Shown: in pieces, positions 18,113 to 57,040 of the stretch | Numbering within the stretch: the first letter of the stretch is position 1 | Layout: the number at the start of each line of letters is the position of its first letter | Assembly: GCA_963575645.1 (NCBI GenBank) | Contig: OY754465.1 | Coordinates: 43,798,401 to 43,862,400 of the forward strand | Reading direction: 5' to 3' | DNA length: 64,000 nucleotides | DNA from: Xanthostigma xanthostigma | Taxonomy: Eukaryota > Arthropoda > Insecta > Raphidioptera > Raphidiidae | Made by a program: the position numbers and the translations under genes | Notes under the pieces: generated by a model | Told to the model about the DNA's origin: nothing | Seen by the model: the letters and a program-made list of their open reading frames with translations, nothing else | Databases searched by the model: none

Positions 18113-18247
18113 GAGATAGACAATCGATTAAAAAAACTTGAAAATGAAATACACGTCTTGCTATGGCTCCATAATGATGGCGATCAACCTAATAGTGCAC
18201 AAGTCAAAAATAGCACAGAAGTTTTTACAAAAAAGTCTGACACAAAT
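18113..18247 (+). CDS. Coiled-coil gene, exon A
   Basis: The exon follows a pyrimidine-rich acceptor (TTTACTCCAG) and ends at AAT|GTAGGT. It holds 45 codons, phase 0 at both ends. It begins EIDNRLKKLENEIHVLLWLH, a short amphipathic helix, and then becomes polar (Asn, Ser, Thr, Lys). A donor four bases later is possible, but only the chosen one keeps frame with exon B. Confidence 0.65.
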
Positions 18248-21200
18248 GTAGGTACCTGATATATATATAGTATTACAAAAATGCTTCTTCAATCTGTAAT
18301 TATAGTCAGGGCCGAATTCAGGTTCCAATAATTGAGCAACTGCTTGAACACCAAGCGATAAAGATCATTAGGGTTTCTCACGAGACGAAGCGAAACAGAA
18401 TTTTTTTAAATATTGTCACGGTCTAGTTGGCAAAAAAATTAGATAAAAAAATAATAATTAAAAAAAAATTTTATAGCAATGTGGAAAAAAAAGTAAAAAA
18501 TAATCTTTATATTTTAAAATTATTTTTTATTTATTTATAAAAATTATTGTATAGTCATGGGTTCTTAATACGTGTGACAAAGGATCCCGCACAAGCCTTA
18601 TGGGGTTTGCTTCTCGATTAAATTGATCGAAAATGGTTTTATTTTATAGTTTAATAAGAAAAAGTGTCCATGGCCACATAATAGCCTAAAAATCAATAGA
18701 TTTTTAGCTACAGATATGTTTAGCGAGATTTTAGATATAGGGATTAGTGATGTGCCGGATATCCGTATCCGGATTGAAATTGAATTCACAATCTTAGGCT
18801 ATGTGCTCATGGACACTTTTTCTCAGTGATCTTTAAACTATAAAATAAAACCATTTTCGATCAATTTAACCGAGAACCAAATCCCAAGTGGGTTAAAATT
18901 AAATTGAGATTCCATCAATGCATACATGGAGGTGAAGTTAATAAAAAAGTGTTAAAAAGGATCGTATGACTTTTATTCATGTCCATCTCGTCTCGTCTCA
19001 TTTCATTAATAGTCGTCTCTTTCAGAAAGAAAGCTAACAATTTTGAAACAAAAAATCTTTTAAGAAAAATTTGTCTTCAAAGAAAGGTTAAGAGCACTGT
19101 TAGTTCCGTTGCACACATTTGCAAAAAAAATAGTTTTTGACATCAATACAATTAATAAATCAAATCTTACTTAGTCTATACCAACAATTTATATAGAAAT
19201 GTTTTTCAATTTGTTTGTTCCGTGTTAATTCAAAAACTACTGAGCTTATTTAATCGGTTTTTCATTGCTGTTAGAGTATAGGATAAGATAAAGGCGTACT
19301 TTCATAAGGGGGTTGGTCAAAAAGATCTTTGATGCGAACGAAGCCGCAGCCAAGGTTAGTGTTTAATATGGCCTGATAATTGTTTCCTGATTTTCTTGGC
19401 AAAAGAAGCTCTGTAGTCTGTAGTATATCGAAATTTATTCCGCAGATTTTATATCTAAGTTAATTAATTTAAATATTGTTTTTACAGTGTAAGTGTTCAT
19501 CAAAATCCACAGCGGACACCTATTATTCAACATTGAGAGAAATCGAACAAAGACGTGCGTCGTCGGCGCCATGTCCACCTCCCACATGCAAACCCTGCGC
19601 ATCATGTCAACCCTGCCTACCATGTAAACCCATTTCACCGTGTCCTTCCAGAAAACCGTGTCTTGATAAAAACTGTCCCGGAAAACCAGTGCGTCGCAAG
19701 TGTTCCTGTTCGCCTAAAAGGAAAAATCCTAGCCTGGTTGCCATCAACGCATGCTTGGACAATATCAAAGATAATTTAGAAAAAGGCAAATTCATTTTTT
19801 TATGTTTTTCTCAAGAATCCGATTATAAGAACTATTTGCAGCTTTTCTGTTTTTTCATGAGTTTAAACTCTAGAGATATAAGTAACTAGAGTACGCTAGG
19901 TCGTATGTTTGCCATAAGTGAAAATGCCCTCAGTTAAAAGAGAGAACGCTGCAGAAACTCAGCGATTTGTTTACTCAATTCAGAATTTTTTAAATCACTG
20001 GTTACCATAGAGATATGAAACTTCTCTCTCTTAATTGCAGACACTGTCACTGCTCTCTCGTAATATATGTATGGTTTAAACCAGTGATTCCCAAAGTGGT
20101 CTATATCGACCCCCAGGGATCGACGACAACTTGCAAGGGGTCCATGTCAGCGGGAAAAAAAATTGGGGGTCCATGAAATGAAAATGGGGGTCAACGATAG
20201 TGAATCTCCTAACAAAAAAAGAAACAAACTGGACATCGTTAACCGAAGAGATTTAAGATTAAATCTAACTAAATTGATGCCAAATGTTGAAAATTTATTA
20301 TTAAAGCATCAGGTTCATCCCTCAAACTAAAAGCATTTATTTTTTGCTTAGTTATTTTATGTAACAGAAAGTAAATTTTAATTTGATTCGTTTAATTTGA
20401 ATCTAATTAATAAATGTATAAAACTAAACATTTCACACTACATTTCACTACCGTTATAAATTTAAATCGTACAAAGTGAGTAGCACTATACCGGTTGTCA
20501 AAAATACATTTGAAATTAATGAATTTGCAAAAAATCAATATTAGATAAGCAGGGGGTCTACCCAAAACCGAAAAACATGGCAAGTGGTCTACGAGACAAA
20601 ATAGTTTGGGGACCTCTGGTTTAAACTTTAAACCAATGAATTAATCCTATAAGTGGCGGCTCCTGAACATTTTAAATGAGTGTTTTGCAGATTTAACCGA
20701 ACGTTCCTCTTAAACAGGGCTAGAAATGAGGGAAGGGGGAGAAGTGAAGTGTATTAAAAAAACATTTCACGTTAATTAAAATATGAATCACATCCATGTT
20801 TATTGTTTATGATGTTTTAATTATTTACTTTTTTCAAACACTGTTGGCAAACTACAAATACGACATACATTGGAGCACTACTGCAATAAGCCGAGTGTCG
20901 TGTATAATATGGCGGTACGTTTGTATGATAACCAACGCAACATACCGACGAATCAAATGTGATGACTGAATCATATGGTTAACACTTTTAGCATATGACA
21001 GTGATAGATGCTTTTATTTATACTAAGGGGTTGACGGAAACTGCAGTACAGAGTCGATCTATATAACACGCTATAACTTGCTGGTCAGGAGTTGCACGGT
21101 GTTCACCGGGGGTATCTGATAATGACGTTTCATGTTCTGCTTGGAGTGCAGAATAGCGTCCGAACGCAAGAAAGTCTGCCACACAGGACACACGAAAGTT

Positions 21201-24200
21201 TTGTGACTGTTATGCCGGCACTTCACATGGCTATTTGTATTTGGCATATTTGGCAAACAATTACCATGTGTGGACAGTCTATTTGACAAAGTGTTGTCCT
21301 TATTTGCCTATTTGACAAATAAGGCCAATAACAAATACGCGTTACCGTGCGCTTGTCGGTTTTTCGAGGCACATCAAATGAGTCATATAGGCAAATACGC
21401 ATATAAACCGTCCACACAATGGCCATCTTCAGAAGCGCACGCGCCGTGAACCTGTACGGACGTGCAGTATTTTTGTGTCTGTGCTGTGAGCGAGAACTGG
21501 AACGATTACTATTGAAAATGAATTGGGACAATGAAACAGTGCTAAAATTCCAGGAATTTTGAACCTTGCGTTCTGCTGTCAAATGTTTGTGTGTTTGTTA
21601 TTTGACTGCTATGTGTGGATGGTAGTATTTGCCTCTATTTGCATGTTTGCCTTGAACGTAATATATTTTGCCAAATACAACAAACACCCAATAGCGAACA
21701 CAAATAGCCATGTGAAGTGCAACCATTAAACTATATAGCGTTGGTTCTGTAACTATCACACTATTTCCTAATGTTAAATAATGGTTAAATATGGACAATA
21801 TAATTCTATCTAAAATTATGAATTATCTAAGATTTTGGTTGTTTTGCAGCTCTGCAGCACTCATAGATAATCTGCCATTGAATCATATTATTGAATATTA
21901 AAAATTGTGTACTTTTTAATACAGGATCTGAAGCTATTAAAAATGCATCTTTTCGAATGGCCGAGGATACTACTTGTCCGGCGAAAAAAATAAAAAACTG
22001 TATGTGCGACGAACTGGAAAAATTGGCGCGACAATTGAAAAATGAAAGAGATAAAAGAAAAGAGACGGAAAATCTTGTCTTGACACTTCGTACGACTCTT
22101 GCTTTGAACAAGAAACAGATCGAAGATATGATGAGAAGGAAAAGGATAGCGCTGGATGTTGCTAAGACGTTGAGAGACAAGTATGAGAACCTCAAAAAGG
22201 CCCGCGAGGAGATGTTGGAAAGACTCGACAGTTTTAAGAAAGAAAATGCTGCGTTATCGAGGAAACTTCTCGCAGAGGTCAAAAATCGTGAATGTTCCTG
22301 TAAGGAAGACAAGAAGAGATTGATGGAGCAAATGAAAATGTACACCGATGAACAGGTACGGCGGTGTAGATAGAATTTTGCTCTAAGAGGGGTGGGGTCC
22401 GACAAAAATTATGATAATATGTAGAAAAACCCAATAAAATTTTAAGGTAGTACCTCCACGACTGTTAAAAAGTTTACGCTTAATACCCCCCACAGTATGA
22501 GGTAGCTTTTCAATCCAAGTACTGACAGTCGAGCTACGATTTTTCAAATCTAAGATATGGCGATTTGAAAAAAAAGCAAATTTGAACTTTTCCGACCGCT
22601 TTGTTTACTTCTTCTCGTCCTGTTACCAACACACTTTAAAAACACAGACAAAGTTTTCGAAAGATCAGAGAATCGCAAGCACCGCTTGGAAGTACGAAAG
22701 AAATTGAATATCAGCCACTGAAAGCTGAAACTTTTTCCGGCAAAATTTTTACGATTTTTTCTCTCAAAGTTGCATTAGTTTTAAAAGTTACTGATGACGT
22801 TTGACATCATAAAAGTTGATTCCATAATTGTTTCGGCCAATATTATAAAAATGCCTTTTTTAAGAACGAAATACAAAGAAATCTAACTACAGTTGAGTCT
22901 AGTTTTGAACAGATGCATAAAATCGTTTATGTCCTTCTAAATATTTCTGCCAGATTTTTTGAACTTAATTTTGTGTATCTATGAAATTGTATAAAACGTT
23001 TCATTTCTTTGAAATCGATGCGACCACTTAACTAATAATAAATAAAAGCTCAGCGGTAGATATATTTTTCGCAAAAAAGAAAAAAGACCAAAGTGACTTG
23101 GTCACATGTTTCGAAGCTTCCTGCCACACAAGCATATTGCAAGCGCCGAGTCGTCAATGTTAATTAGGTACTATAACAGTACATTTTATGTTTATATACA
23201 CTCGCAAAAAACAATGTGGTTCCATTGGGGTTCCGTGCTATTAATTCAAGTTTTCGAGATTTTTTATGAATTAGCTTGAGCTTAAGATTTCAAAATTAGT
23301 ATATTAGATACGATTTCAAAATAACCATTTGATTTTTAAATATTTAATATGTCCTAAAATTTAATGTTATTATGAATACGAAAAAAAATTATAAAAAACT
23401 GTGATATAATTAAAGATAAAATTCTTGTAAGACAATTATGTATGTTTCTACAGCTGACGTTGAGAGAAGAAAATATAAAGCAACTTCAAGAATCGAATAA
23501 AAAACTGACAAGTGAGCTACAGGCAAATAAAGATCAGTTAGCCGCGATGGAAAATAAGTACGGATCAGCAATTAAAGAGTCGAATGATATCAAGGAACAA
23601 GTGAAACAATTGGAAAGACAAAATCATTGTTTGATTCACCAGTTGGCCGTAAATATGCAATTTTTCAATGATTATTTACAAAAAATACAACAAAAAACGC
23701 GATTACGCGACTAAATTTAATTGATTGTTTTGATTATTTAACATTTTCTTAGAGCTTAAGAACAGTCAAGCTCGTAGATTTTCCGTTGTTTACGTGGCTC
23801 GCCCATTACAAACCCCTAATTTCCGGATTCTGATTCGAGAACTTGTCAAATTATTAATTGGATTTTCAATTAATTATTATTGAAAATAGACATTCAAATA
23901 GCTTGACGTTTTTGCTAATTACTTAGCTTGACAATCAAACTTCTTAAAAATTTCAAAGTACGTGATATTACTTGATTATGAACCGATTAATTAATTATTT
24001 ACGAAAAATCACGAATCATTTCCCTAAGTTTATGTATGTATTAATTAATGAAAAAAAGATGCAAAATTCCCTGAGCTGGAAAATTGATTTTATTATTTTA
24101 TTTAGAAAAATATATTACGTCAATATGAGCTTGATAATAATTGACATAATATAATACTTGACTAATGCTTTGGTACTTAATATATAACTACTTCCGGCTG

Positions 24201-27169
24201 AGGGCCCGTGGCATTTTGCCGACTTGCCACCCTGTGGTTACGCCACTGCATATAAGTACCTAAATTTGAGGGTATCCATGCATTTTCGCTTCAACGTATC
24301 TCGGTGCGTCAAATTGCACGAAGCCTTGTAACCGCCCTATGCAGTAATATGCATCGTGCAGGGTAAATAGAAATAGCTATGTTAAAAGACATGTAAACCA
24401 TTAGAAGTGTTGTGAAGTATAGCACAACGAGCCACAATAAAACGTAAAATGATTACTGAACTTAAAAAAAAAAACTGTTTAGCACAATCGACGGTGTTAT
24501 GAACAACTGACAACCGACCATGAGCAGCTATCAGCCGCAGCTCAAAAAATGAAATTAGATTTGAAATCTGCTGAAGAACAGTTGTGTCATTGCAAAAGAG
24601 AAGCTTCTAAAAGTGACGATCTGAAGAATTTACTCGACGAAAGAACTTCGCAATACGACGAACTGCAAAGTCGGTGTGATGAATTGGAGCGAAAACTCAA
24701 AGAAGCTCAATTCGAAGATGAGAAGAGGTTAGCTATTGGGATGAGCACGTTTTTAAACAAATGCGCATGCGTCGTCAGTTTGCTGACGGTTTGGGATAGT
24801 AGATATAACACTTGTGCCGCGTGATGTCACCCGCGCCTAGGAAAACTGTTAAATTTAAAGTTAGATTAGTCAAAAAATGAGTTTCATGAGAAAAATAAAT
24901 AAAAGTATACAAAAAATATGAGCAATAGAGCATTAATAAAAAAGGTTCCATGAAGCAAAAAATTTATAGGCCAATTATTTAAACAATTTCTGTTGTTTTT
25001 AATGAAGACGGTTTTAGCTTCACTTTTTAGGCGCGAATAGCGTAAGCTAAAGCACCTATATATTGTACTCGCTTTGTCTGTGAATCTGTATGTCACGCTT
25101 TTCTGTGTCACGTGTACAGCTCAAACGCCTCAACCGATTTTAAAAAAATTTCTTTTGTTCGATTCGTCTCCGGGTAACTTAGTCCGATTTTTTAAAAATA
25201 AATTTAAAAAAATGATTTCCACAAAACTTTATTCTTTCAAGTGTTAAGATGACACCATAATTTCTGAGAAACATATTTTCATGCTCTCTGACAAATAGCA
25301 CACATGCTTGAATAAAGAGTTAAGGTACTGTAAGAATATCATTATTTTTAAATAAAGGTTTACATGCAGCCACATAATTTGATGCTGTTATTATTCTTAC
25401 AATCTTTTTTTGTAACAAAAATATAGAGTTCAGACCCGCAAACGATCCACCCCAAAATATAATGCCATAACTACATACGGATTGAAAATAGCCGTAGTAC
25501 ATATGCATTAAGACTGACTGGTTTACCAGCGGTCTACATTTTCTGAACATGTAAACTATTTGACTTAATTTATTGTACTTATTATTAATATGATCGTTCC
25601 AGTTTAGATTACTAGTAATATGAATGCCCAAAAATTTTGTAGTCAGAAGGTTCAATACTATTTTTGTCTAACAGTACTTTAATTTGCCAATCGTGAGAGT
25701 AACTAGATGAATGAAAATCTAACCGAACTGTTTTTTCAGTGTTTAAGACCAGACCGTTAAAACTACACCATTCCTATTGCTCATATTTTTTTGAAGACTT
25801 GGATCTATTTTTCTCATGACTCACTTCTTGACTAGGTTAAGTTTGCAGTTGGACACCGTTGTTGTTTCTAAAATTCTTTCGCCATTAATTTTGTAATAAT
25901 CTCTTTTAGATAACGTATTAGTCGTTGTTTCAATATAAAGTCGATCTTATGATAAATGAATTCTTATTTCCTGTGAATTTTTTACTTACACTTTTCCAAA
26001 AGTGTTGGTAAATCGTATTGAAACGGTTGCAATCTATATTGTTTAAGTGTCGAATCAATATTGTTAGATAAATATCGTTTCGACAGAAGAAAGTCTTAAT
26101 TCCTTGCGATGGCACAACTCATAGGTTTTAACGATTATTTATTTTTTATTAGATGTCAGGCAGTTGACGCAGAACTAAAGAAGTTTACCGATATCATGAA
26201 AGAAAAAGAATCTATACTCAAAGAAGAAAAAGAACAAATGAAAAAGTTAGTCGAAGACCTTAACAGAGCTGTTGAAATCCACAAAAAGAAGTAAACCAAA
26301 TCTTTTTTATTTATCACTGTCATAAAAAAATGATAACTGCCAAAAAAGCGGGGCAAACAGTTTATAGTAATTTTGTGTTTTATAAAATCGTTATCACCTT
26401 ATTTTTTAGAATCGATGAACTTATGAAAATTAATAAGCAACAAGAACTGAAATTAAAATCATACGCAGCCGACGCAGATTCTAAGGTACTTATTATTATC
26501 AATTTTTTGAAAGCGAAACCGTGTAAATCGGGGGATAAGTGTAGTTTATAAATAGGTGAACGGTACTATCTAGGCCAGCAACACTTCGACCGGCCATGAT
26601 CGCGTGGGCTTAGTCTGACTATGTATGAAAAATCCAATATACGCCTTTAACAATATTCAAGTTATAATCCAACGCATACACAAAGTAAGTGTCATGCGCT
26701 GTCATCTAACGAAATACTAGTAACTAAATTTCGCCCTGTTATCTAGACGTCGCTTTCTACTAAAGCAATGTTTAATCCAATGATCACAAACGTAACGTTC
26801 TCCCATAAAACTCCATTTCATGAAAGTGTCGTCCAACCAAACTCGCCATTAGATGTTTCACATCAAAAACGTTAAATTTTCGTGTTCTATACCGCCTTTC
26901 TACTTAATTTATTTTGACATATTTATAAGGACAAGAGAGTTCGTTCAGTTGAAGCTGAAAATGAAACTATGAAATGCAAGTGTCAACAGTACGAAGGCAA
27001 AATATGTGATCTGACACGTTGTCTGAAAAATACTGAAGATAAGAGTGCTGAAATAGCTCAACGGATTCCGTAAGCTACAATTTCTAACCACAATACTAGT
27101 CCATTGAAATGTTACTTTTTTTGGGATAAAATTATACCTACATTTGTCAGAGGACGCAATTTTATTTTT

Positions 27170-27200
<31 letters not shown>

Positions 27201-30200: not shown

Positions 30201-33200
30201 TCCTGGGTTCGATTCCTTACGAGATCATTGATTTTTTTCTTTTTTTTGTTTTTATTTTGTTTTATTTTATTCCACTTGATATTAATTATATATTATATTA
30301 TGTATAGTTCTTAATTTTTTTTATTTTGGCAAACTTAAAAAAAATATTTTTTCAATTTTTAATTATTTATTACTTTAAATTTTTAAATCTTTTTAAATTT
30401 ATTAAAAATATTTTTTAATTGTTATTTTTTTATCATACAGTGGAAAACTTGCGGGATGTGCACTTTTGGTTTTGCCAACTATTTAACTTTACACTAACCC
30501 CTTCTTGATATCTAAAAAATAAAATTGCGTCCTCTGACAAATGTAATTTCAAATGTAACTTTTCAATGGACTATACTTTATTCCATAGCCTTCACAAAAA
30601 ATCCAGCTATTGTCGGATTGATCAAAGTGACGGATTACAGTGTATACACAATGGGGTACATGCAACATGTAACTTATATTTAGTTCAAATATTATTTTTT
30701 GTAATCTTTATTTCAATTTATTAAACTCTAAATAGCTTTTTCTTTTTAAGTTTATGCTGAAAAATAAATATTAATTAAACAAAAAATTTTAAAAATACGC
30801 GCGAAATATAAAATATCGAAATGCAATGCTGTTGATTAGACCGTTGTGTGACGTCAAAATACACGTAAACATAATATGGTTGCCATAGAATAATTGGTTA
30901 TGACCAATAAACGATCATAGAGTTTACAACCAACGGTTTTATAATTATGAATCTAAATTATTAATGTTTTTCCTTTTTAGTACCTACATTTCTATAAAAG
31001 CCTGTCTTTAAAAAGTTTTTTACAAATATTTTATTTTGTTCTTCTTATTCTGTTAACATTTTTACTTAAAACATTAGTGAATTTAAATTAATTGATAATT
31101 AAATTCTAAAAAACGATTGCATTTTATTGCATATATTTTTTGTACAAAATTTTGAATCGATCGATAATGTGGCGTTCGCCATATTGGACGTACAGTGACG
31201 TCATATAGCTTACCGTATCCCACTCGTCAAACTCTTTCATTTGACACCCATGTCAAGGGGGTTGTGAAGAAAAAGGTATTCCGCCGTTTTGAGGTATCCG
31301 CCAATTTCGATTAGTGCATTATAATATATGAGTGCAAAATTCCAAAGCTCTCACTTAATTAGATATAGTCGACATTTTTATATGAATCAAACTGACACAC
31401 CGACAAACATGACAAATTAATACAGCAAATAATCGAGCGGCCGATTAAAGGCTGTTCACTTACCTGTGAGCAGCCTAGAAGGACACTTCACCCGCTACCA
31501 CATCGCTTTTGATAATGTCTACCGCAGTTGTAGACGAAACGTCAGGTAGAAATACCAATGGACCACGGCATACAAGCCCGGAAACCAAGAGGATTTGGAT
31601 CAATACCGGCCGTGAAAGCCTACACACTTGGATAAATGTCTTTTCTGTTACAGACTAGCATTAGAAGAAGCCAAAGATAGAGTGTTAGTTAAAGAAAAAA
31701 TAATTGAAGATCAAGAAAAAACAATTAAAGAGCTCAAAAAAGGTATAAAAGAACACAAATGCATGTGCGAAGAACTGGAGAAACTCCGTCGGGAACTCGC
31801 CCGCGAAAAAAGTCACAAGCAGCACATTGCCAACGAAGTCATAGTTTGTATTCGTTTTATAAAAAATCATATTGTATCACCTTTGAGATGCTTTTAATTA
31901 AATAATTGAATCTGATCATCTATTCAAATACTGACGCGCCTCTATATCTATACCATCTATTCATCTAAATATTGAAAAATAAATTATTTAAAATCAAGTA
32001 AAAATGACAAAAATAAAGGACCCCGCACAAACCTTATGGGTCTAGGTTAAATTGATCGAAGATGGTTTTATTTTATAGTTCAAGGGTCACTAAGAAAAAG
32101 TGTCCATGGACGCATAGCCTAAAATCCAATAGATTTTACGCTACAGATATGTTAGAGAAATTTTACGTATAGGGATATCCACTGAATTCACAAACATGTT
32201 CCATGTACTTTTGTGCTTTTTTTTAGAAATAAAAAAATAGTCGAAAACTAGGCAATGTTGGAAGGTGTATAAAATAATAATGTCATATTCGGATTTAGCG
32301 CACTCGAAAATATATATCTAGAGCTTATGATTTTTTAAGATTGTGAATTCAATGGATATCCCTATATCTAAAATCTCGCTAAACATATCTGTAGCCTAAA
32401 ATCTATTGGTTTTTAGGCTATGCGCCCATGGACACTTTTTCTTAGTGATCTTTGAACTATAAAATAAAACCATTTTCGGTCAATTTAACCGAGAACCAAA
32501 TCCCATAAGGTTTGTGCGGGGTTCTTTCAAAGTATTTTTAACATACAATCATAAAGAAAAAAATTAAATTTTAATTAGACTTACCGTAATTTTTTCAAAT
32601 CTCATGTCGTGCTGTAAATAAATATTGACAAATATCAGTGTTTTGTTACAAATTTTAGTTGAAAAAAAATGTGTTTTCATATTTTCACGCAACAAACTAA
32701 ATTTTGTGTTTCATCACAGCTAATACAAACAGTAGGTGGTAAAATGCCTTTTTGCAAATGTGAAGCAGTCATGATTTAAAGATTCCGTCACCTCAACAAC
32801 CCATTCCCAACACCTGATCAGGTCTGGGATACAGATTCCAGAGCCATCCTAGGCTTCATCAAAAGCTTTAACCTCACTCAGGAATAAACAAGTCAGGGCT
32901 ACACAATAGATCTAATAAGGTCGCAGTGTCAACGAGGCGCGCCTCACACCTTCATCTAATCTAATCTAAAAAATGCCTTTTGCCACCATAGTTTGAAATT
33001 TGTCGAGAGCATTTTTGACAACCCGAATGAGCAGTTCACTTTAACAATAATTAATCTGATACGGAATTAAAAAACTTTAAAAAATTGAACCTCCTTCGAA
33101 AGAGGTCACTAAAATGCCTAAAATAACCATTCTGCTTTGATGCTTATTGAATTACTATCACTTTTTATTTACTTATATATTATATTAAGTTGGTGCCGAC

Positions 33201-36200
33201 CTCAAAACTTTTTATTTTACGCCTTTTAGTGAGGTTCAATTTTTAAATTGATTTTTTACTTTTCGGTGGCTTTGCAATATGAAATTGGCTCGTTTTTAAT
33301 CACCTTCTTCCCTATTAAATAGAAAAAAAAATCGGCAAAATCGATTCATATTTACTGAAAAATTTCCTTTTTTGAAGTCAGTTAAAACGACTAAACCGAT
33401 TTTTATAAAAAAATTATGGTACCAATTCGAAAACATTCTGAACAAAATTGCATGGAAATTTTTCAAATCGGTTAGCCGCACGAGAAGTTATGGCTTATAC
33501 ATAAAAAAAATATAAGTGACCTCCCTTTTTTTGGATTCGGTTAAAAAGTGGGTTGCATATCAATTTGCTTTTGCAATTTATAGCAAGCTCAGAAGAAAAA
33601 AGAGCAGTTGACTCAGCGTGTGAACGAACTCCAAGAAGAGCTAAAAAAACGGGCGACGTCGAATGAGGAACTTGGAAAGCAAAGGTCTTTGATTGAATCC
33701 TTGGAGAGAACTGTGCACTCCAAACAGTGCGAATGGGAATTAAAACAAAGAGCCCTCACCAAGGAGAAGGAAGACGCAATGAACGCCGCAAAGTTAGTGC
33801 TTACAAAATATCGTATGATTTATAGTCGATCGAACGACATTTTCTTAGAACAGGGAGTCTTAGGCCCTTCTCACACGGAGCTACTCAAACGAAACCAATT
33901 ACTAACTCGAGTTACAAATCAGTCTCTAGCACTAGTATTTCAATGGAGGTTGGCACACGGAGCTATCGGTTAGTAATCAGTTTGTGACCAGTTAGTGATC
34001 AGTTTCAAGCGACGCGGCGTGCTGGTCGCCACGCTACTAGTTACTAACCAGTTACCAATAAAACAACAAAAATGGCTGATCTAATCCAAAATTTAAAACT
34101 GGTAGACGCTGTCAAAAGGCATCCTTGCCTATATAATTACACGTTAAGTGATTATTCTCGAAAAGATAAGACGGAAATTTACTTGATTTACTTGATTCTG
34201 AAATATTAAAACATTGTAAAAACTTGCCTGAGTGTTATTCAAATTCTCTCCTCAGCGCTGACACATTCACGCATTGTAGTATTCTTTTTGTGAATAAAAG
34301 GAGACAGTATTTCCAGTAAATTTAAAAATGTTTCTTTGGACATTCTATAGAATGCCAAAAATTTCGCATCATTTTCCTGTAGCTCTTTGGCAGCAACAAA
34401 TGCCCTACAATTTAAATTTTTTCTATATAAGGATGAATCCAATATTGGCGTTTTTTCATTCGTCGTTGCCTTTTTTGATTATAATAATATAAAATAATAT
34501 CCTCATCACTTGATTTAGATGCAGAAAACATTATGACAGCTCAAATGAAACAAGTGATTAAACAATGATTTGAGTAGCATTGTGTGCAAAGTTTGGTTAC
34601 TAACTAGTTAGTGATTTTAGTTAGTAATCAGTTTAGTTTCATTTGAGTACTTCGTGTGAGAAGGGCCTTAAACCTGTTTCGCCTACTCTACAATAGTAGT
34701 TTATGTATCTCGTACGTAAATTCAGGCAGTATGTTACGTGATATTACGCTTCACGAGCGTCAGCGTAGTCACACAATTCGTAATAGCATTACGTACAAGA
34801 TACATACTACTTTTTTGCACGTACCTCCTATAAAATACTTAGATGATTTTAACAGTATAATATGTACATTTGTAATATTTTTGACAATTAAGATGAAGGA
34901 AGGTTTTGGTTGAGGATCACAAAATAAGCTTTACCAGTGTTTCGCTAGTGGCCAACGTTTCGAAAATAATAATAATAATAATTATGATCATGTATACTGT
35001 TAGAACAATTTACCACTACTTGGCCAGCTTGAGGCCCTGAAGATGAAAATAAATTTTTCGAAACGTTGGCCACTAGCGAAGGTAAAGCTTATTTTATGAT
35101 CCTCAACCAAAACCTTCCTTCATCTTAATATTCTATTGGATCAACACTACTTTAACTGAAGACATCGATATTTTGGATATTTTTGACAATCCACGTTCGT
35201 TCATATTGGTATTTGTGAGTACTGTTTAACAGCGTCTATTTTGCTTCTCTGTCGCTCATATGAATTTAAATGGCAACCGACAGAGATATCACTATTGGAT
35301 TGTCGAAATCGACTTACTTTTGTCTTACTTTACGCACTAGTGCGAAAAAGGGTCATTTTACAACAGTTTTATACAGGCAAGAAAAACAGCTATCTTACGT
35401 CTATCTCGAATTTAATCAATGAGCTTTTAACTTTAAAAAGTAGAAAAATATCCATACATAATTTGTAAGTTAAAAGAAATATTGACGTATCTCTAAATTT
35501 TAATAGAATTTTGATAAAATTTTTCAAACTTACCGCATGCTGGTAGAAAAAAATACATCCTTATAACAATCGGCACACGCCCAATAATTTTGTCCAGGGA
35601 ACCCCTCAGTTAAGTCCTCGAAATTAACACACAACAAATTCATATTAGAAATACTACGAGATCACAACTATACCTATCACTCCAAAAGACTGAAATATCT
35701 GCTGCAGTGACATGATATTTCAACGGTTTTGACATTACGTAAGGTACATTAATTTATCTAATATTATGTAAGTTGTTCGGTAAAACCAGTGGCATGCACA
35801 GACGTAGTTTCCATAACACAAGCACAAGGAAAATATTGAACCGCGTAGTTTAAATTACATACTTTTGAAGTGAAACTACTAGTTGCGTTGATTGTAGACA
35901 CAAACACGTGCATCCAAACACCAACGGCACAGGGGAGTGGAGATGAAGCGTTTTGTACACGTTGTTTCGTTAGGTACATGTTCAGCCGTATGAATTCAAT
36001 CCACTCTATTCTGCGTAGAGAAGTTGCACTTTAAAAAAAGTGAATTAAAAGCTTGTAAAAAGAGAAATTTCGTCTCTGAAAATAGTATTGCCGGTAAAAG
36101 GTCACCATCAATTAATTTATTCCTAGGGCAAACAAATTTAAGAACCACTCGTCTAGACTCTAGAGCATATTATAATTTTTTGGACAAAGAGAACGAAAGG

Positions 36201-39200
36201 AAGAAATGAAAAAAAAAATTAAAGGAATTCAAAGAAAGACACCGTGACCGAAAAAACCTATTTAACTCCCCGAATAATTTATCAGTAGAGTCGTATATCG
36301 TTTAAAGAAGATAGTAGTGTCATTTCTGCGCACTAACGAGTTTCAGGCCGGACGGGTCAATGTTAACAATGAACATGGTCATTTAGGTGTTCGTTGCTAG
36401 TCGAGACGCACCATTGATAGCACATATTTTCTATGCTTGCCCCTGAAGTTAAAAATCACGCCGCTACTGGTCGCTTTTTCCACTCTTCTTACTACTCAAA
36501 TCCCTCCCTTGTTACTATCTTCTCTAAACAATACTGCCCTAAAAAGGCAAAGGGCAGTAAGTGACATTTGTTAAAAAATGAGAGCTGTTGAGCGTCTATA
36601 ATTTACAATCTCTCTCTCTAAAAAATGAGTTCATACTCCAACGACAGCAGTAAGTGCTGCAGCAATAATTTTATTGTCTTTAAAAAATGTTTCCCCCATG
36701 TTTTGGTTTCCATAATCTAAAATTCTGGACGGTCAATACATTTTTAGTAAATCTTGATTTACTCAAATTCATAAGTTGGTCACTTACTGCCTTTTGCCTT
36801 TTTACGGCAGAATACTACTCTAGTCTTTTCTAAAGTACCCCCGAAACGGTCAATTGCGATTGTCAATATTACTACGGGATTGGCAACAAATGATAAGAAA
36901 TTTGATTGACGGCAATTTCTCAACACAGTTCAGCAATTGACTGAGATGTGCGCAAATGGATAACCTTCAATCATGTAAATATTGACAATTATACAATTGA
37001 TCGTTTCGGGAACTCTTAAGATCCCCGGACTATGTTTAGATTGATGTTTTTAAGTTCTTTGGTAGCAATAAGCAGGACCGTGCATAGTATAAATTTGGCG
37101 CTCCTCATCCTTTATAATAATAATAATAAATTTATTCCCACTAATATATTTACAAAACAAAAACAAATTATAAATCTAATTGTTATCAATAATCAAACCA
37201 AAATTTTGAAAGATTTCTGACGCTCCTTATATCTGGTGTCCGGAGGCGTGGAACTGGGAGCTAGTGGAATGTGTGATAACCTCGCACTTACAGAACAAAA
37301 AAAAAAAAAAAAATAATATACATTTCGGCAATTAATTTGTGTCGTCACTATAAAATCGAAAAAAATATTTTTCAGATACGCATCTAAGAAACTATTTGAC
37401 ACAGTTGAAGAATTTCAAAAACAAATGGCGGCTCAAAAGAAGGTTCATCATGTTTTGTCATCACTGTTATCAGAAAAAGAGAAACAACTTAAGATCGCCA
37501 ATACAAAGGTAAATGCTGTAAATTGTAAATGCGATGTCCTGAATAAAATTAACGATCTCGTAATTATAAATACTTTATAAAGAAAGTTTAAATATTTTTA
37601 TTTTTGTAAATCGAATAACATTCAAAAAGAATTTTATTGATATGAAAAATTACATAAATGAAACATTTTTTCAAAAGCTAATTACAATTAATAAAAATAT
37701 TTTTAATGTTCTAACATTTTGGAGAAATTATAGATATTCAAAAGTTTCGGTTAACAGGGTCACTTAAAATGCACAAAATACAGGTACTTCTCGACTAACG
37801 AATTACCGACTTACGAACGCTCCGGACAGTGTCGGATTATACCAAGTGCCGCCTATACGCTAAAACAGGCTTGCCGCCCACTTAAGGCTAGCGTTTTCCC
37901 GACTTTCAAATCATTCCGCATATATTTGCTTTAGTAGCCCGCAAATACACCAAGTTTGAACTAGGTTCTCATTTATCCTACCAAGACTCATGTTCGAGGG
38001 AAAACGTTGCCTCCCGCCCCTGATAACGCGCTGTGTATATTAATATTATATCAGCTAGTAATATCTGATTCCGATTGGAGGTTCAAGACAGACCGTCATT
38101 TCGTTAGTTAGAAATCACTCCGACGAGTACCGCCTTACGCTTAGCGTAGTTAGCGTATAGGTTAATCCGGCACTGGCTCCGGACTTACGAACAGTCAGAC
38201 CAATGAAATTCACCCACAACCCACTTATGTCGGGCCCTGCAGGTGTGAGAGATGCATTGAGTTGCTATTCACTGATCCAGACGGAAAAGAGGAAAAATCA
38301 AGTTCAACCCTTAATAACTCAATATTTTCAAAAAAAAAGATCTTAGAGGAATGATCAAGGCAAAACAAATAGCCCTTTTTAGGGCCAAAAAAGTCAACAA
38401 TGACACAGTACATTTTTGTACATCGGCCCTTTTCAGGGGTAACAAAAATATACGACGAGTCAAAAAAACTGTTCTACATTGACCCTTTTCAGTGACAAAA
38501 CACCAAAAATATCCATGTATGTATTATATCCATAATTCCAAATCTCTACATATGACCGAATTACGAACAAACCCGACTTACGAACGAGTCCCGGGAACGC
38601 AAGGTGTTCGTAAGTCGAGGAGTATCTGTGCATGTCTCTATAAAAGATTCAAGATAAAAAATAGATGAGGCGCTTGCTTTGAATAAAAGAAAATTGGACT
38701 ATTAGTTGGGGGATGGCGACAGAAATGGTCAAGGAGCACTCGATTGCAGAAACGTTCTCTTTCGGGTAGTCTTGACCTCCCTCTACAAATCCACTTGGTG
38801 GAGCAGGGGTCTAGCGCGTTGCGATACACCGCTGAGGCGCTTAAAAAATGGCAAAATTCAAAAGTCCTCTACGAAATGGCAGAAAATGACTGAACAGCAT
38901 CAGGGGGACCTCCTAGTTGCAGAAAAAATTTGACCCCCTGCAGAGACTTTCAAACTCCTTTCAAAAAATCGAAAAAAAAGTCAAAAAAATAATAAGTAGC
39001 CCAAAAAGTTTGTAAAAAAATATCTGCCAATTTTGTCACTGCTAGATCACAATCTGCCAATTTAATGTACTTGTCATTAACGCTTTACCCGAATACCATG
39101 TTCACTTTCCGCGAACATGACGCGTTTTTTCAAGGTCGATTTTGGCAGAAAACTGTACCTCAGGATTCTCTACAAGAAGACGAACCGTTTGAGTTCGGTT

Positions 39201-42200: not shown

Positions 42201-45016
42201 TCATAACGCCAAAAGAAGTATAATTTCAAAAATTGAAAGGTATATTAGCTTCGCAAAGAAAACGGTAGCTTCGCAATTTTCTGCGCCATGAGAGTTGTAT
42301 ACGAAGAATAAATTTTCTTCTCGATTATTGAGGAATTTTGTTAAAACTCACAGTAGATTGTGGTCCGTACACTTGTAAAGACTGCCGATTCCTGATCTAG
42401 AATTATAAATCGAATTTTGTTTATTGTAGATAAAGATGTTACACACTCAGCAAACTCTTGATGAAGATGAAAATGTCAGATATGTACACAGTAGGACACA
42501 TTATTATTGTTTACGTTAAAAAAATCTACATTGTTCTTGGTTTTCACGCTTCGCATACAGGTAACAAAACTCAATTTTATTTATTGAAGAGTTCTAATCA
42601 GACTTTAATCAAAGATTGCAATTTTATTTAACCACACAAGTATACTACATTATGCAATAGACTTACCTCAACTGTCCCGTCTATGGGACTATAAAAATAA
42701 ACACTATAATCCCCTCTCTGGGCTCCATTCTCGTTCCTTATGCAACAAATTTTATAACTGCATACTCGGTTATTATCAAACTAAGCATTTGAGCGCGCCT
42801 GAGCGATTTACGCTTATCAAAATTAAATTCGTACACGCTTTTTCGATCATATAATAAAAACAAAAACGTGTGAATCTCCGCCCATAGAGATATTACAATA
42901 GAGCACGCGAGAGAACAGTGAAAGTGTCTGCAATTAAGAGAGAGAGAACAGTTCCTTATCTACAGCGTGTCCACGGAAGTTCTTTACAAATGGAATTTTT
43001 TTTTGTTAATTATTGAAGCAAAAATTTCTTTTTGTGGAAAAGTTCTGCTTCGTCCAAAACCTTTAAAACACCAAAGAAAATTTTCTTCGGCCTAAAGTTA
43101 TACGAGGGAAATCAAAAAGTTTTATTTGACTAAAAATAAAAATTATCTGTGATATTCAAGATTTTCATAAAATTAGTTACATAATCAAATTTAATTCAAA
43201 ATAATAACATAACTAACTTCTAAGTAATTATTTATTCAGAATTATAAATCAGAATTCAACATATCCTCCATCTCTCTCCATACAAAGAACGGTTCTCCTT
43301 CCAAAATCCGTCACTGAATTTCGAATCATTGTAGAAGGAATTTGATGGATTTTTTCGGTGATAATCCTTTCCAATTGATCAATATTTTGAAAAGGTCTTT
43401 CAGAGTACACCATTTTCTTTAGATAGCCCCAGAGGAAATAATCTAGGGGTGTCAAATCGGGTGATCTAACTTTAGTAAAATAAAACTTTTTGATTTCCCT
43501 CGTATAACTTTAGGCCGACAAAAATTTTCTTTGGTGTTTTAAAGGTTTTGGACGAAGCAGAACTTTTCCACAGAAAAAAAAATTTGCTCCAATAATTAAT
43601 TAAAAAAATTCCATTTGTAAAGAACTTGCGTGGACACGCTGTATATGGTAACTAATGATGCAAAACAATTCTGATTTCAGTAAAAAATATTGTTTTTCTG
43701 CAGCGTTCTTCTCTTAACTGAGGAGACTTTCACTTATGGCAAGGATACGCACTAGCGTACTCTAGTTACTTATATCTTTATGTCTACCCCACATAAGCTC
43801 ACGGAGGAAGTGAAACTTCTTTACAGTTATGAACTCGTTTCATTGATGTTATCCATTTAGCATTACCAAGGTTTCTCTTATATTGGCGTTTACAGAACAT
43901 TTCAAACAAAATAATATAGTTAGAGGACGATGACAGAAATGGTCAACGAGCACTTGGTGGTAGAAATGCTCTCGTGGCGCTGGGGCACTTAAAAAAAACA
44001 GCAACATTCAAAATTCTTCTACTTACTAAATGGCAGAAAATGACTGAAAGGCATCTGGGGGGGGGGGGGTCCTCCTAACTGTAGAAATAATATTTTCTGC
44101 CAATTTACTCCCTGCAGAGACTTTCAAAATCATTTCAAATTGAATTTAAAGTTGAAACTTGACGGAATGGTTGATTGGTGGCCCGGAATACGAGAAAAAA
44201 TTTTCGTGGCTCCAAGTGATCTCACTTTCTTTCGATGATTCTTCAAAATTTGCACAGGCAAAAATTCTTACCAGGCTTTCTATTAGTATACCCAAAAAGT
44301 TTGAAAAAAATATTATCCGCCAATTTTGTCACTGCTAGATTACAATCTGCCAATTTAATGTAGGTACTTGTCATAAATGCTTTACCTTGATACCATGTTA
44401 AACTTTCCGCGAACAAGAAGCGTTTTGCAAGGACGATTTTGGCAGAAAACTACCTCAAGACGAACCGTTTGAGCTTGGCTTCACTCACCAAGCTTTTCTT
44501 TTCTTTTTTTTTGTATTTATTTATTATATTGACAGTCTCTGCAGGGAGTAAATTCATAGAAAATATTTTTTCTTCAATTAGGAGGACCCCCTAGATGCCT
44601 TTCAGTCATTTTCTGCTATTTAGTAGAGGAATTTTGAAATTTTGCGTTTTTTTTAAAGTGCCCCAGCGTCGTTTTGGAATGCGCTAGGCCTTTACTCCAC
44701 TAAGCGGATTTGTAGAGGGGGACTCAGACTACACGAAAGAGGGCATTTCTGCCACCAAGTGCTCCTTGACCATTTCTGTCACCGTCTCTTTCACTAATAA
44801 GTCGCTGAAGAAGTTTCACTTAAAAAATTCTTAGAAATTCTCGGAGTGACTACTAGAGACGGATTTTTCTTCCACCCCCCCCCCAAAAAAAAAACAAAAC
44901 AAAAAATACTTACCCAGGACTAAATTTTGTTTCAGATTTCTGCAATAACGTCTGTTTTAATGAAACAAAATAATTTTGTGAATATTCAAGCCGGTGGCGA
45001 CAGCAACATAATTTAA
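18113..45016 (+). CDS. Coiled-coil protein with recurrent CxC motifs and a Cys/Pro-rich block (gene span, exons A-L)
   Basis: Twelve exons join in frame on the plus strand: 18113-18247, 19488-19785, 21925-22355, 23454-23648, 24483-24727, 26153-26290, 26410-26485, 26930-27069, 31654-31843, 33584-33792, 37376-37508 and 44936-45016. Every junction is phase-compatible and the sum is about 756 codons plus a short unlocated start. The product is mostly charged heptad-type coiled coil (Glu, Lys, Leu, Gln), interrupted in exon B by C-x-P-C repeats and elsewhere by C-x-C pairs in exons B, C, E, H and I. Two of these share the pattern CMC[DE]ELEKL. No enzyme domain is visible. Composition resembles sperm-tail structural proteins (Cys-Pro repeats of ODF1, insect Mst proteins), suggesting a disulphide-linked fibrous role; this is inference. 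The family is not recognised by name. Confidence 0.75.
18578..18893. mobile_element. Foldback family B, copy 1
   Basis: Arms carry ATTAAATTGATCGAAAATGG and CCATTTTCGATCAATTTAAC in opposite orientation, with the GTCCATGG...CACTTTTTCT block in each. Further copies are at 32014-32529 and 40763-41806. Confidence 0.7.
19488..19785 (+). CDS. Coiled-coil gene, exon B (Cys/Pro-rich block, GC donor)
   Basis: The exon starts after TTTTTACAG with CKCSSK and carries about 14 cysteines in 99 residues. The centre is a run of C-x-P-C type repeats (CKPCASCQPCLPCKP), then PSRKPC, DKNC and KCSC, before returning to helical sequence (INACLDNIKDNLEK). No GT donor fits. AAAAAG|GCAAAT at 19786 does, leaving one base that completes a Gly codon with exon C, so this is a probable GC-AG intron. 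The open frame continues past the donor to a TAG, which would be a truncated product if unspliced. Confidence 0.7.
19872..20073. repeat. Repeat R3, copy 1
   Basis: Shares GTAACTAGAGTACGCTAG, GAGAACGCTGCAG and TCTCTCTTAATTGCAGACAC with an inverted copy that is split by a mariner remnant at 42885-43770. Confidence 0.65.
20082..20618. mobile_element. Non-autonomous hAT element, TSD GTTTAAAC
   Basis: Starts CAGTGATTCCCAAAGTGG and ends AGTTTGGGGACCTCTG; perfect GTTTAAAC duplications lie at 20074-20081 and 20619-20626. It is a relative of the element at 2186. It lies in intron B-C of the coiled-coil gene. Confidence 0.85.
20651..21880. mobile_element. hAT family R1, copy 3 (inverted, with nested MITE)
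   Basis: Termini AAGTGGCGGCTCC and AATCTGCCATTG; flanks AATCCTAT and AATCATAT agree at 7 of 8 positions. Reversed R1 core sequence is recognisable at 21060-21200. A 500-bp MITE splits it at 21219-21720. Confidence 0.65.
21219..21720. mobile_element. Nested MITE with long terminal inverted repeats
   Basis: The left end reads GCACTTCACATGGCTATTTG and the right end CAAATAGCCATGTGAAGTGC. It interrupts the R1 copy. The minus-strand open frames inside show no transposase motif, and the target duplication is unclear. Confidence 0.65.
21925..22355 (+). CDS. Coiled-coil gene, exon C
   Basis: This is the longest exon (144 codons with the split Gly), from TTTTTAATACAG to CAG|GTACGG. It encodes a near-continuous coiled coil of Lys, Glu, Leu and Arg. 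It contains CMCDELEKLARQLKN near its start and RECSCKEDKKRL near its end, two of the recurring C-x-C motifs. A 1.2-kb hAT copy ends only 44 bases upstream of the exon. Confidence 0.75.
23454..23648 (+). CDS. Coiled-coil gene, exon D
   Basis: The exon follows TTTCTACAG and runs 65 codons in phase 0 (LTLREENIKQLQESNKKL onward), a clear heptad coiled coil. The chosen donor is GCC|GTAAAT at 23649. The frame stays open to a TAA at 23712-23714, so a truncated read-through end is possible, but splicing to exon E in phase 0 restores the coiled coil. Confidence 0.65.
24483..24727 (+). CDS. Coiled-coil gene, exon E
   Basis: The acceptor is CTGTTTAG before CACAATCG. The frame reads HNRRCYEQLTTDHEQL and continues as coiled coil with EEQLCHCKREA (C-x-C motif), DELQSRCDELERKLKE and FEDEK, to the donor GAG|GTTAGC. 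It leaves two bases (AG), completed by the first base of exon F to give Arg. Confidence 0.65.
25320..25860 (-). mobile_element. Degenerate LINE reverse transcriptase C-terminal fragment
   Basis: The frame at 25320-25655 reads TKFLGIHITSNLNWNDHI, then YYGYFQSVCSYGIIFWGG and LQKKIVRI, the conserved post-RT region of CR1/jockey-type LINEs. Upstream, a different frame continues (GLVLNTEKTVRLDFHSS), so it is frameshifted. It lies in intron E-F. Confidence 0.75.
26153..26290 (+). CDS. Coiled-coil gene, exon F
   Basis: The exon lies between TTTTTTATTAG and AAGAA|GTAAAC. It encodes CQAVDAELKKFTDIMK and further Lys/Glu-rich helix ending in HKK, phase 2 at both ends. A 118-base intron separates it from exon G. 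Confidence 0.7.
26410..26485 (+). CDS. Coiled-coil gene, exon G
   Basis: The acceptor is TTATTTTTTAG and the donor is AAG|GTACTT. The exon encodes IDELMKINKQQELKLKSY and ADADSK. It closes the AA-A split Lys codon from exon F and ends in phase 0. Confidence 0.7.
26930..27069 (+). CDS. Coiled-coil gene, exon H
   Basis: Open in phase 0 after ATTTATAAG; an acceptor six bases later is equally phase-compatible. It encodes VRSVEAENETMKCKCQQYE, then ICDLTRCLKN and a short helix, ending CC|GTAAGC and leaving two bases that form Pro with exon I. It carries one C-x-C pair (CKC) plus two further cysteines. It is too short for ordinary ORF listing, but the frame, codon use and splice sites agree. Confidence 0.65.
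27165..29095 (-). mobile_element. 5'-truncated non-LTR retrotransposon (CR1/jockey-like)
   Basis: Inserted antisense in intron H-I. It ends in a (TAA)n tail at the plus-strand left side, and its 5' side stops inside the linker that normally follows the endonuclease domain. Only the reverse transcriptase frame remains. Confidence 0.8.
27290..29074 (-). CDS. LINE reverse transcriptase (ORF2, endonuclease missing)
   Basis: An intact 594-codon frame. From the N-terminus: endonuclease-RT linker (NKSIAAWNIIRG), KTSVVCPVYKKNDPALLSNY and RPISLLSVFSKVYEK (RT motifs 1-2), GIFFDLSRAFDMI with the first catalytic Asp (about residue 235), GVPQGSVLGPLLFILFVNDI, LFADDVSAVV with the FADD catalytic pair (about residue 325), KFLGINVDDRLNW and a C-terminal region. 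Full-length elements add an N-terminal APE endonuclease, lost here by 5' truncation. The lack of stops suggests a fairly recent insertion. It cannot mobilise alone. Confidence 0.9.
   Translation of the reverse strand: MTSDNKSIAAWNIIRGTIDIKSKSKYPTSFCDVEGHVHTDFKEIAQLFNNYFINSVRDTVNDLSISDNNMKDNRIASADSIYLYPANEIEIIDVIGSIANKHSCGSDGIPCSLLKRVVKHIAQPLAFLINQSMQEGIFPTKLKTSVVCPVYKKNDPALLSNYRPISLLSVFSKVYEKVYQSRLWSFIKKHDLLSQNQYGFVEKSSTEDAVLSLINNVIKCLEQKKKVAGIFFDLSRAFDMINHELLLHKLNNYGMRGTANKWLESYLTGRLQMVKMKHENCVYESSVHTIKTGVPQGSVLGPLLFILFVNDIFSNVNNASLTLFADDVSAVVTDINISGVSDSATNCVKDMINYCSINQLKLNYDKTELMLFSSRNINSQSLLCRANKSSIVQKSVVKFLGINVDDRLNWYEQIDIVINKISSRNFVIWQLRDKVNAQILKMYYFSYIQSVITYGLLCWGNSSRINDVLISQKRVIRTMSFKDRRHSCRILFKNLNILTVVSLYIMNLLLYVKKNNLYNFDDNRRNTYLNIPKHRLNLSAKNQQIVAIKCFNHLPKCIREIKNFKAFKNKIMSLLLRNTIYSLDEYFSFNFNDV
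30151..30250 (+). mobile_element. tRNA-derived SINE
   Basis: The box A-like GTGGCGTAATGG and box B-like GGTTCGATTCC are spaced as in a tRNA, but the T-arm and anticodon stem do not close and a T-rich tail follows. It is better read as a SINE head than a functional tRNA. Confidence 0.5.
31440..31640 (+). mobile_element. Penelope-like retroelement tail with hammerhead-like motif
   Basis: GATAAT is followed by a perfect 6-bp stem (GTCTAC at 31517-31522, GTAGAC at 31530-31535) and GAAAC, the hammerhead order. Downstream words GGACCACGGCATACAAGCCC and CCGGCCGTGAAAGCCTACAC are familiar from arthropod Penelope-like repeats. It ends about 20 bases before the exon I acceptor. Confidence 0.5.
31654..31843 (+). 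CDS. Coiled-coil gene, exon I
   Basis: The exon starts after TTTTCTGTTACAG and encodes LALEEAKDRVLVKEKIIE and then HKCMCEELEKLRRELARE, a near repeat of the exon C motif CMCDELEKLARQLKN. The donor ATA|GTTTGT leaves phase 0. A retroelement tail ends only about 20 bases before the acceptor. Confidence 0.7.
32014..32529. mobile_element. Foldback family B, copy 2
   Basis: Left arm AAAGGACCCCGCACAAACC and right arm GGTTTGTGCGGGGTTCTTTC, with about 190-bp arms sharing TGGTTTTATTTTATAGTT. The centre of about 130 bp is unique to the longer copies. Lies in intron I-J. Confidence 0.75.
33584..33792 (+). CDS. Coiled-coil gene, exon J
   Basis: After CAATTTATAG the frame encodes QAQKKKEQLTQRVNELQEEL and continues through SLIESLERTVHSKQCEWEL to MNAA, a heptad coiled coil with one Cys. 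The donor GCAAA|GTTAGT leaves AA, completed to Lys by exon K. A PIF/Harbinger remnant begins 70 bases downstream. Confidence 0.7.
33863..34667. mobile_element. PIF/Harbinger remnant, TSD TTA
   Basis: Termini GGCCCTTCTCACACGGAG and the inverted CTTCGTGTGAGAAGGGCC, flanked by TTA at 33860-33862 and 34668-34670, the PIF/Harbinger target. A minus-strand transposase fragment at 34239-34442 confirms the class. It is a deleted, non-autonomous copy in intron J-K. Confidence 0.85.
34239..34442 (-). pseudogene. Harbinger transposase N-terminal fragment
   Basis: The frame reads NCRAFVAAKELQENDAKFLA, then FYRMSKETFLNLLEILSPFI and SAEERI, the N-terminal helical region of HARBI1-like nucleases (F.MS...F..LL..L.P.I). 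It stops before the DDE catalytic domain, so it is inactive. Confidence 0.8.
34889..35176. mobile_element. Foldback element with 14-bp TSD and hammerhead-like core
   Basis: The duplication ATATTTTTGACAAT lies at 34875-34888 and 35177-35190. The inverted arms share AAGGTTTTGGTTGAGGATCA and GCTAGTGGCCAACGTTTCG. On the plus strand CTGAAGA (35037-35043), stem GAAAA/TTTTC and GAAAC follow in hammerhead order, with GGCC/GGCC able to form a stem just before. Same architecture as 15152-15632 but different sequence. Confidence 0.6.
35995..36304 (+). pseudogene. Lys-rich open frame broken by one in-frame TGA
   Basis: Inside intron J-K, one frame runs with coding-like composition (KKSELKACKKRNFVSEN, RTTRLDSRAYYNFLDKEN), meets TGA at 36210 and continues in the same frame (KLKEFKERHRDRKNLFNS) to TAA at about 36303. 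It could be a decayed exon or retrocopy, or chance in AT-rich DNA. Not recognised. Confidence 0.25.
37376..37508 (+). CDS. Coiled-coil gene, exon K (spliced form; read-through ends at 37580)
   Basis: After ATATTTTTCAG the frame encodes YASKKLFDTVEEFQKQMAAQ and then LSSLLSEKEKQLKIANTK. An AAG|GTAAAT donor at 37509 joins exon L in phase 0. If it is not used, the frame continues for 23 codons (VNAVNCKCDVLNKINDL and a short tail) to TAA at 37578-37580, with AATAAA at 37690. The read-through tail contains another C-x-C pair, so both ends look functional. Confidence 0.65.
37690..37695 (+). promoter_or_regulatory. Poly(A) signal for the read-through end of exon K
   Basis: AATAAA lies 110 bases after the TAA of the unspliced exon K. 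In AT-rich DNA this word is common, so its support comes only from its position. Confidence 0.35.
37781..38628. mobile_element. hAT-like element with nested hAT
   Basis: Termini CAGGTACTTCTCGACTAACG and TAAGTCGAGGAGTATCTG are inverted relatives, and the internal sequence has several ACTTACGAACG words. No clean 8-bp duplication is visible. The 349-bp element at 37827 lies inside it. Confidence 0.6.
37827..38175. mobile_element. Nested hAT MITE, TSD GCTCCGGA
   Basis: Termini CAGTGTCGGATTATACC and GGTTAATCCGGCACTG, with perfect 8-bp duplications GCTCCGGA at 37819-37826 and 38176-38183. It carries internal inverted GC-rich words. Confidence 0.85.
38711..39490. mobile_element. Foldback family A, copy 1
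   Basis: Long inverted arms: GGCGACAGAAATGGTCAAGG at left and CCTTGACCATTTCTGTCACC at right, with shared CAAATCC, CGCTT and AATGGCAGAAAATGACTGAA blocks in each arm. No coding capacity. Confidence 0.75.
39925..40110. repeat. Repeat R4 (CCCACATAAGCTC)
   Basis: CCCACATAAGCTCGAGGGGG and GAAGTGAAACTTTC, then TTATGAACTCGTTTCA, recur at 43788-43895; a shorter relative is at 8917-8960. Class unknown. Confidence 0.55.
40763..41806. mobile_element. Foldback family B, copy 3, with nested R6
   Basis: Outer arms match the copies at 18578 and 32014 (ACAAACCTTATGGGATTTGG at left, TTTGTGCGGGGTCC at right). R6 is inserted in the centre at 41070-41608. Confidence 0.7.
41070..41608. repeat. Interspersed repeat R6, copy 2
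   Basis: Starts TTGACGTGATAACGTC and ends TTTACAGACAACC, as in the copy at 2936. It is longer here, with a region of repeated TTTATATAGAAAAATA near 41310-41355. Confidence 0.7.
42570..42615. mobile_element. Isolated end of the 15152-type foldback
   Basis: TTTTATTTATTGAAGAGTTC and AATCAGACTTTAATCAAAGA match the last 40 bases of the element ending at 15632. Only this end is present, as expected from 5' truncation. Confidence 0.65.
42963..43643. mobile_element. Mariner-like element remnant (TA target)
   Basis: Inverted ends of about 170 bp, starting CAGCGTGTCCACGGAAGTTC and ending GAACTTGCGTGGACACGCTG, flanked by TA. Each arm contains TTATACGAGGGAAATCAAAA or its complement. Only the transposase C-terminus remains inside. 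Confidence 0.85.
43249..43455 (-). pseudogene. Mariner-type transposase C-terminal fragment
   Basis: The frame reads TPLDYFLWGYLKKMVYSERP, followed by IITEKIHQIPSTMIRNSV and CMERDGGYVEF. This matches the end of the DDE domain of insect mariner-like transposases (LTPLDFFLWGY, final NGGHFE-like motif). The catalytic Asp residues upstream are deleted, so it is inactive. Confidence 0.85.
43928..44786. mobile_element. Foldback family A, copy 2
   Basis: Arms CGATGACAGAAATGGTCAAC and GACCATTTCTGTCACCGTC match copy 1 at 38711. The shared block AATGGCAGAAAATGACTGAA appears in both arms, followed by a long G run at about 44060. Confidence 0.75.
44936..45016 (+). CDS. Coiled-coil gene, terminal exon L
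   Basis: After a good acceptor (TTTTGTTTCAG) the frame reads ISAITSVLMKQNNFVNIQAG and GDSNII, then TAA at 45014-45016; phase 0 matches the exon K donor. AATAAA follows at 45119. The intron before it is 7.4 kb and almost entirely foldback, hAT and mariner sequence. Its link to exon K rests on phase, splice sites and the polyadenylation signal. Confidence 0.55.
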   Translation: MSAITSVLMKQNNFVNIQAGGDSNII

Positions 45017-47838: not shown

Positions 47839-48000
47839 CTGAAAACAAATATATCAGTTTATTGTCCGTTTCACTACCATTCTATTTTCCATTAAATTTT
47901 TATTTAAGTTTCCGCTCAAAATATAGTTATTAATCTACATAACCTAAATCATTTCTCAGTACGAAAACTAAAAATATGCAGTGTTAACAGAAATACATAC

Positions 48001-57036: not shown

Positions 57037-57040
57037 CTGT

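Follow-up and report, generated by a model that had tools for sequence, protein, structure and literature searches.

The dhMst101 axoneme proteins combine a Lys/Glu helix with cysteines and contain a short Lys/Glu/Cys tandem unit, and ODF1 is marked by Cys-Pro repeats. In Rad50, the best-known case of intermolecular zinc binding in the part of the literature sampled, the zinc hook consists of one C-x-x-C at the tip of a hairpin. A further family of interest is Mst(3)CGP, whose members are described in PMC10645079 as containing repeated Cys-Gly-Pro and as showing male-specific transcription, in primary spermatocytes; a passage of PMC3667087, consulted for Cys-Gly-Pro, concerns thioredoxin.

Here we describe a locus within a 64,000-nucleotide stretch of Xanthostigma xanthostigma DNA (hereafter, the window), whose product is predicted to be a ~750-residue protein with a long Lys/Glu coil behind an N-terminal Cys/Pro block. 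Its second listed exon, B, resembles the Mst(3)CGP proteins (Mst84D and Mst87F of Drosophila) in its Cys/Pro-rich repeats. However, a coil of ~580 residues is predicted here, and Cys-Gly-Pro, which is repeated in that family, occurs 0 times in the protein joined from exons A–K. The locus shares a Lys/Glu helix with cysteines with dhMst101 and Cys-Pro repeats with ODF1, but no short unit was found repeating through the coil, and the Cys-Gly-Pro difference applies here as well. With regard to a dhMst101-type unit, Tandem Repeats Finder, which overlooks arrays below about 70% similarity, gave only an 18-nt repeat of 2.9 copies inside the Cys/Pro block of exon B (19581-19631) and a 21-nt unit of about 2 copies in exon I. 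As in Rad50, cysteine pairs lie in a coiled-coil protein; Rad50's pair joins two chains through metal and is a single C-x-x-C at the tip, whereas here six C-x-C pairs lie along the predicted rod and no Pfam match was obtained. A long coiled coil is also common to this protein and BICD family-like cargo adapter 1, a non-significant likeness in the search of solved structures (E 0.14).

The exon chain and its two ends

The original prediction listed twelve phase-consistent exons, and this chain held up: all 12 (A–L, forward strand) were found with matching phases, no stop interrupts any of them, and joined in phase they give 2265 nt with a single terminal stop. The model draws on the splice sites, the phases and the character of the protein, and the gene is apparently split, nuclear and, by one search of its own genome, single-copy. 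Donors are GT in 10 of 11 cases, the exception being exon B, which ends at a GC (AAAAAG followed by GCAAAT). By rough, hand-entered matrices, scores are lowest for the acceptors of exons E (-4.4), H (-0.1) and K (0.8) and for the donor of exon I (-1.0); the acceptor of exon L was judged by eye.

At the N-terminus, exon A (18113..18247, splice scores 8.7/6.3) encodes a coiled-coil-like segment. Exons A and B contain no in-frame Met, and in the original exon list none precedes exon C. A candidate first coding exon lies at 16936..16944 on the forward strand: it reads MSE, ends in phase 0 at a donor scoring 7.7 and has an A at -3, and joined to exon A it would give MSE-EIDNRLKKLE. It is one way to begin the protein (MSE joined to EIDNRL) among 20 ATG-donor combinations listed across 16 kb; a donor above 7 together with phase 0 was seen in 2 within the nearest 5 kb, of which it is one. 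A home-made codon and splice score revealed no convincing upstream coding exon.

At the other end, the chain offers two possible C-termini. Exon K (37376..37580), when read to its own stop codon at 37578-37580, ends in NCKCDVLNKINDLVIINTL, and this tail holds the third copy of a motif otherwise seen in exons C and I. Searching all six frames of the window (127,996 positions) for C-x-C-[DE]-x-[LIVM]-x-[KR] returned three matches, namely exon C, exon I and the tail, and the stricter C-x-C-[DE]-x-L-x-K recovered the identical three sites. First-order simulation yields 0.1 expected matches per window (no more than 1 in any of 60 runs), and for a 23-residue tail the expectation is about 2e-5, figures that are optimistic since both patterns were chosen after the likeness of the tail to exons C and I had been noticed. 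An AATAAA follows the exon K stop at 37690. Exon L (44936..45016) lacks Cys, joins in phase from the donor at 37508, which is strong (8.2), and is followed by a second AATAAA at 45119. Taken from the sequence, the tail is probably coding and the stop at 37578-37580 probably the main end, with exon L a possible alternative ending; the span to 45016 would then probably not be that of the main transcript. The original prediction had noted a read-through C-x-C at the end of exon K while ending the chain at exon L; the pair is indeed present, but exon L is now doubted as the main end, as the tail itself, with its motif copy, looks coding.

The predicted coil and its cysteine pairs

To rank coil propensity independently of the exon list, we scored every six-frame stretch of the window that runs 21 residues or more without a stop, with Cys set neutral and a hand-entered coil matrix. 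Among the best 40 stretches shown, exons A and C–K account for 10 of the top 11, bearing out the charged coiled coil that had been proposed; exon E (24483..24727, containing CHC and preceded by the weak acceptor) ranks 1 and exon J (33584..33792) ranks 2. Exon A ranks 9 in this list with 21-residue windows and stays below a coil probability of 0.5 with 28-residue windows. Across the 751 residues encoded by exons A–K, coil probability exceeds 0.5 in 69%, and in 80% with Cys neutral. The predicted coil, of the Lys/Glu type, covers ~580 residues, interrupted by short breaks, between about residues 164 and 746, and by prediction, together with the helix model of exon C, a heptad repeat extends across this long stretch. 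It takes in exons D (23454..23648), F (26153..26290) and G (26410..26485), each placed by phase, coil prediction and the six-frame ranking, as is exon H (26930..27069), which bears CKC. Exon C (21925..22355; CMCDELEKL and CSC), modelled alone from its single sequence, forms one helix over residues 19-142 (mean pLDDT 89.0) after 18 non-helical residues. Exon B (19488..19785), modelled likewise, gave two short helices with an unordered Cys/Pro block between them, an unreliable model (mean pLDDT 49.9).

The C-x-C pairs are not random with respect to composition. The A–L protein contains 7 C-x-C pairs among its 32 Cys, against a shuffle mean of 1.3, with 7 reached in 0 of 5000 shuffles; without exon B, the remaining 655 residues hold 18 Cys and 5 C-x-C (shuffle mean 0.45; 5 reached in 0 of 5000). 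With the read-through tail included, the A–K protein has 8 pairs, placed where they had been reported: two in B, two in C, and one each in E, H, I and the K read-through. The Cys/Pro-rich block was likewise found in exon B, which contains 3 C-x-P-C, a motif exclusive to this exon, in addition to its 2 C-x-C. Successive pairs in the A–K protein are separated by 71, 53, 98, 120, 134, 67 and 145 residues and thus recur without regularity.

We then placed the six coil pairs in the heptad. Read from both flanks together, of either 14 or 21 residues, the heptad puts the second Cys at e, d, d, a, a and a, i.e., at a core a/d position in 5 of 6, which random, independent positions would give with a probability of about 0.009. 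Registers derived from the left and right flanks conflict at 5 of 6 pairs (170, 268, 388, 589 and 734), leaving pair 522 alone unambiguous; at pair 170, where the second Cys sits at e, the conflict arises with 14- and 21-residue flanks alike, and at pair 589 a and e are nearly tied.

The motifs of exon C and exon I (31654..31837; CMCEELEKL, placed by motif search and coil prediction, with the weak donor) had been called near copies (CMC[DE]ELEKL), and their match is in fact the best among 262,450 14-residue pairs within the protein; the region also leads when Cys is neutral and only the coil is compared (170,820 pairs). When compared whole, exon C against exon I scored 73, which 0 of 1000 heptad-preserving shuffles matched (highest 72), mostly owing to the shared motif. 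The score of exon C against the rest (86) was matched by 11 of 500 such shuffles, and the similarities of C to K and of I to K did not rise above shuffles (284 and 68 of 1000 reached them). Growth by internal duplication, as proposed originally, thus fares unevenly: the ~14-residue motif repeats convincingly, but beyond it the signal is weak. Duplication on the scale of exons was considered and rejected as unproven.

Readings of the proposed cysteine-paired rod

Modelled this way, the protein would be a structural rod with C-x-C thiol locks, forming a stiff fibre or linker of the cytoskeleton, a reading to which we assign a probability of about 0.5. Two chains would wind in parallel, so that each C-x-C pair would face its twin, and the four thiols at each site could lock the chains via disulphides or a bound metal ion. 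At the N-terminus, the Cys/Pro block would tie rods to one another at their ends or to other proteins. Such a rod might, as one possibility, sit in the flagellum or neck of sperm, as cross-linked cysteines are a known feature of flagellar fibres. The in-phase chain, the coil ranking, the C-x-C excess (0 of 5000), the core placement in 5 of 6 pairs and the single long helix modelled for exon C argue for this reading; the disagreement between flank registers at 5 of 6 pairs, the irregular pair spacing and several weak splice sites speak against it, and the C-x-C pairs might reflect lineage drift. A fuller version, in which the rod carries six four-thiol C-x-C sites (disulphide or metal), three of them sharing C-x-C-[DE]-x-L-x-K, and has two C-termini with or without the last staple, is improbable in all its detail. 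Were the pairs conserved and cross-linked, the protein would be a naturally occurring coiled coil that bears several thiol staples over its length.

The same features could be read otherwise. By analogy, the coil might run along the flagellum as a sperm-tail or axoneme-associated fibre whose cysteines are oxidised late in spermiogenesis, a possibility we hold tentatively and whose odds overlap those of the thiol-locked rod, as it is a special case of it. The Lys/Glu coil with its Cys/Pro block fits such a fibre, as does the lack of a relative in the libraries searched, since such a lack is common for fast-evolving testis genes; yet the Cys-Gly-Pro repeat is absent, Tandem Repeats Finder detected no repeat through the coil beyond the two or so unit copies in exon I, and no sperm-tail family is among the 3 that Pfam gave at E<=10. 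If expression proved confined to the testis, the gene would supply a further constituent of the sperm cytoskeleton. Alternatively, twin C-x-C pairs may form four-thiol zinc or copper sites in a reducing cytoplasm, e.g., in a centrosomal or trafficking scaffold, on a principle similar to that of the Rad50 zinc hook. The pairing of the cysteines, the core-side second Cys in 5 of 6 pairs and the four thiols that two chains would bring to each site are in keeping with such metal staples, but Rad50 differs with its lone C-x-x-C at the hairpin tip and the likeness to the adaptor BICDR1 is non-significant (E 0.14), and we consider this version unlikely.

That the protein is an ordinary long coiled coil, its C-x-C pairs having no special role, appears doubtful: outside the motif the internal similarity is generic, the pairs are irregularly spaced and many registers are ambiguous, all as such a coil would have it, but the excess of C-x-C over composition and the threefold occurrence of C-x-C-[DE]-x-[LIVM]-x-[KR] are at odds with it. 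A different concern is whether the chain joins two genes, with A–B belonging to another transcript and C–K starting at the ATG of exon C (FRMAEDTT). The GC donor at the B–C junction, the lack of an in-frame Met in A and B and the 18 non-helical residues at the beginning of the exon C model would agree with a split; nevertheless, the B–C phase fits, every exon is stop-free and, with Cys neutral, the coil segment 130-158 crosses the junction at 144/145, making two genes quite unlikely.

Relatives and neighbouring sequence

The A–L protein, in which neither the K tail nor the MSE start is included, served as the query in the searches of Pfam, solved structures and the species' own genome. No Pfam model reached its curated cutoff, including coiled-coil, filament and zinc-hook families; 3 families appeared at E<=10, the best being OVT1 (E 0.019), whose 15.8 bits fall short of its cutoff of 30.9. 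Among solved structures none was significant (7 distinct sequences fell at E<=1, the lowest value being 0.073), and no paralogue was found in the own genome, where all 12 matches at E<=0.01 were the gene's own exons (56 of 56 candidates scored). These results support the absence of a recognised family within Pfam, solved structures and the own genome, and the protein's description as unrecognised stands for the libraries searched. Relatives of exon C were confirmed in 0 of 6 pattern stretches from viral contigs and 0 of 40 from bacterial and archaeal contigs, where the gene is not expected, and among titles and abstract openings we found no paper naming such a Cys-x-Cys coiled-coil protein.

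As for the surroundings, scans of the window gave 0 Rfam hits and, with bacterial settings, 0 tRNA hits. Telomere-type repeats, sought as a hint of the order, numbered 0 for (TTAGG)6 and 0 for (TCAGG)5. Within the H–I intron lies a reverse transcriptase frame of 602 residues (27293-29098, reverse strand; RVT_1 E 9.6e-38), which we take to be of the non-LTR type. Downstream of the gene there is an exon of the cytochrome c oxidase assembly factor COA8 (47581-47853, reverse strand, E 2.2e-21), beside which tandem arrays occupy 46796-46887 and 47143-47313 with periods of 15, 29-31 and 44 nt (TCGGGGATA... type). Further along, a 277-residue Ser-rich frame (56226-57056, reverse strand) carries a CPWE motif near both ends and matches 0 Pfam families; it presumably resembles the tail of GPR158/smog-type receptors, and this acidic stretch is the sole outsider among the top 11 coil stretches, at rank 7. 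About 4-5 kb to the left of the window, a 337-residue open stretch (L009:4676-5686, reverse strand) looks coiled-coil-like by eye and has weak Pfam matches below cutoff (GAS E 0.0094, KIF21A E 0.025). Upstream of the gene, inverted-repeat stretches were noted by eye at about 14065-14155 and about 15170-15610, perhaps the remains of mobile elements.
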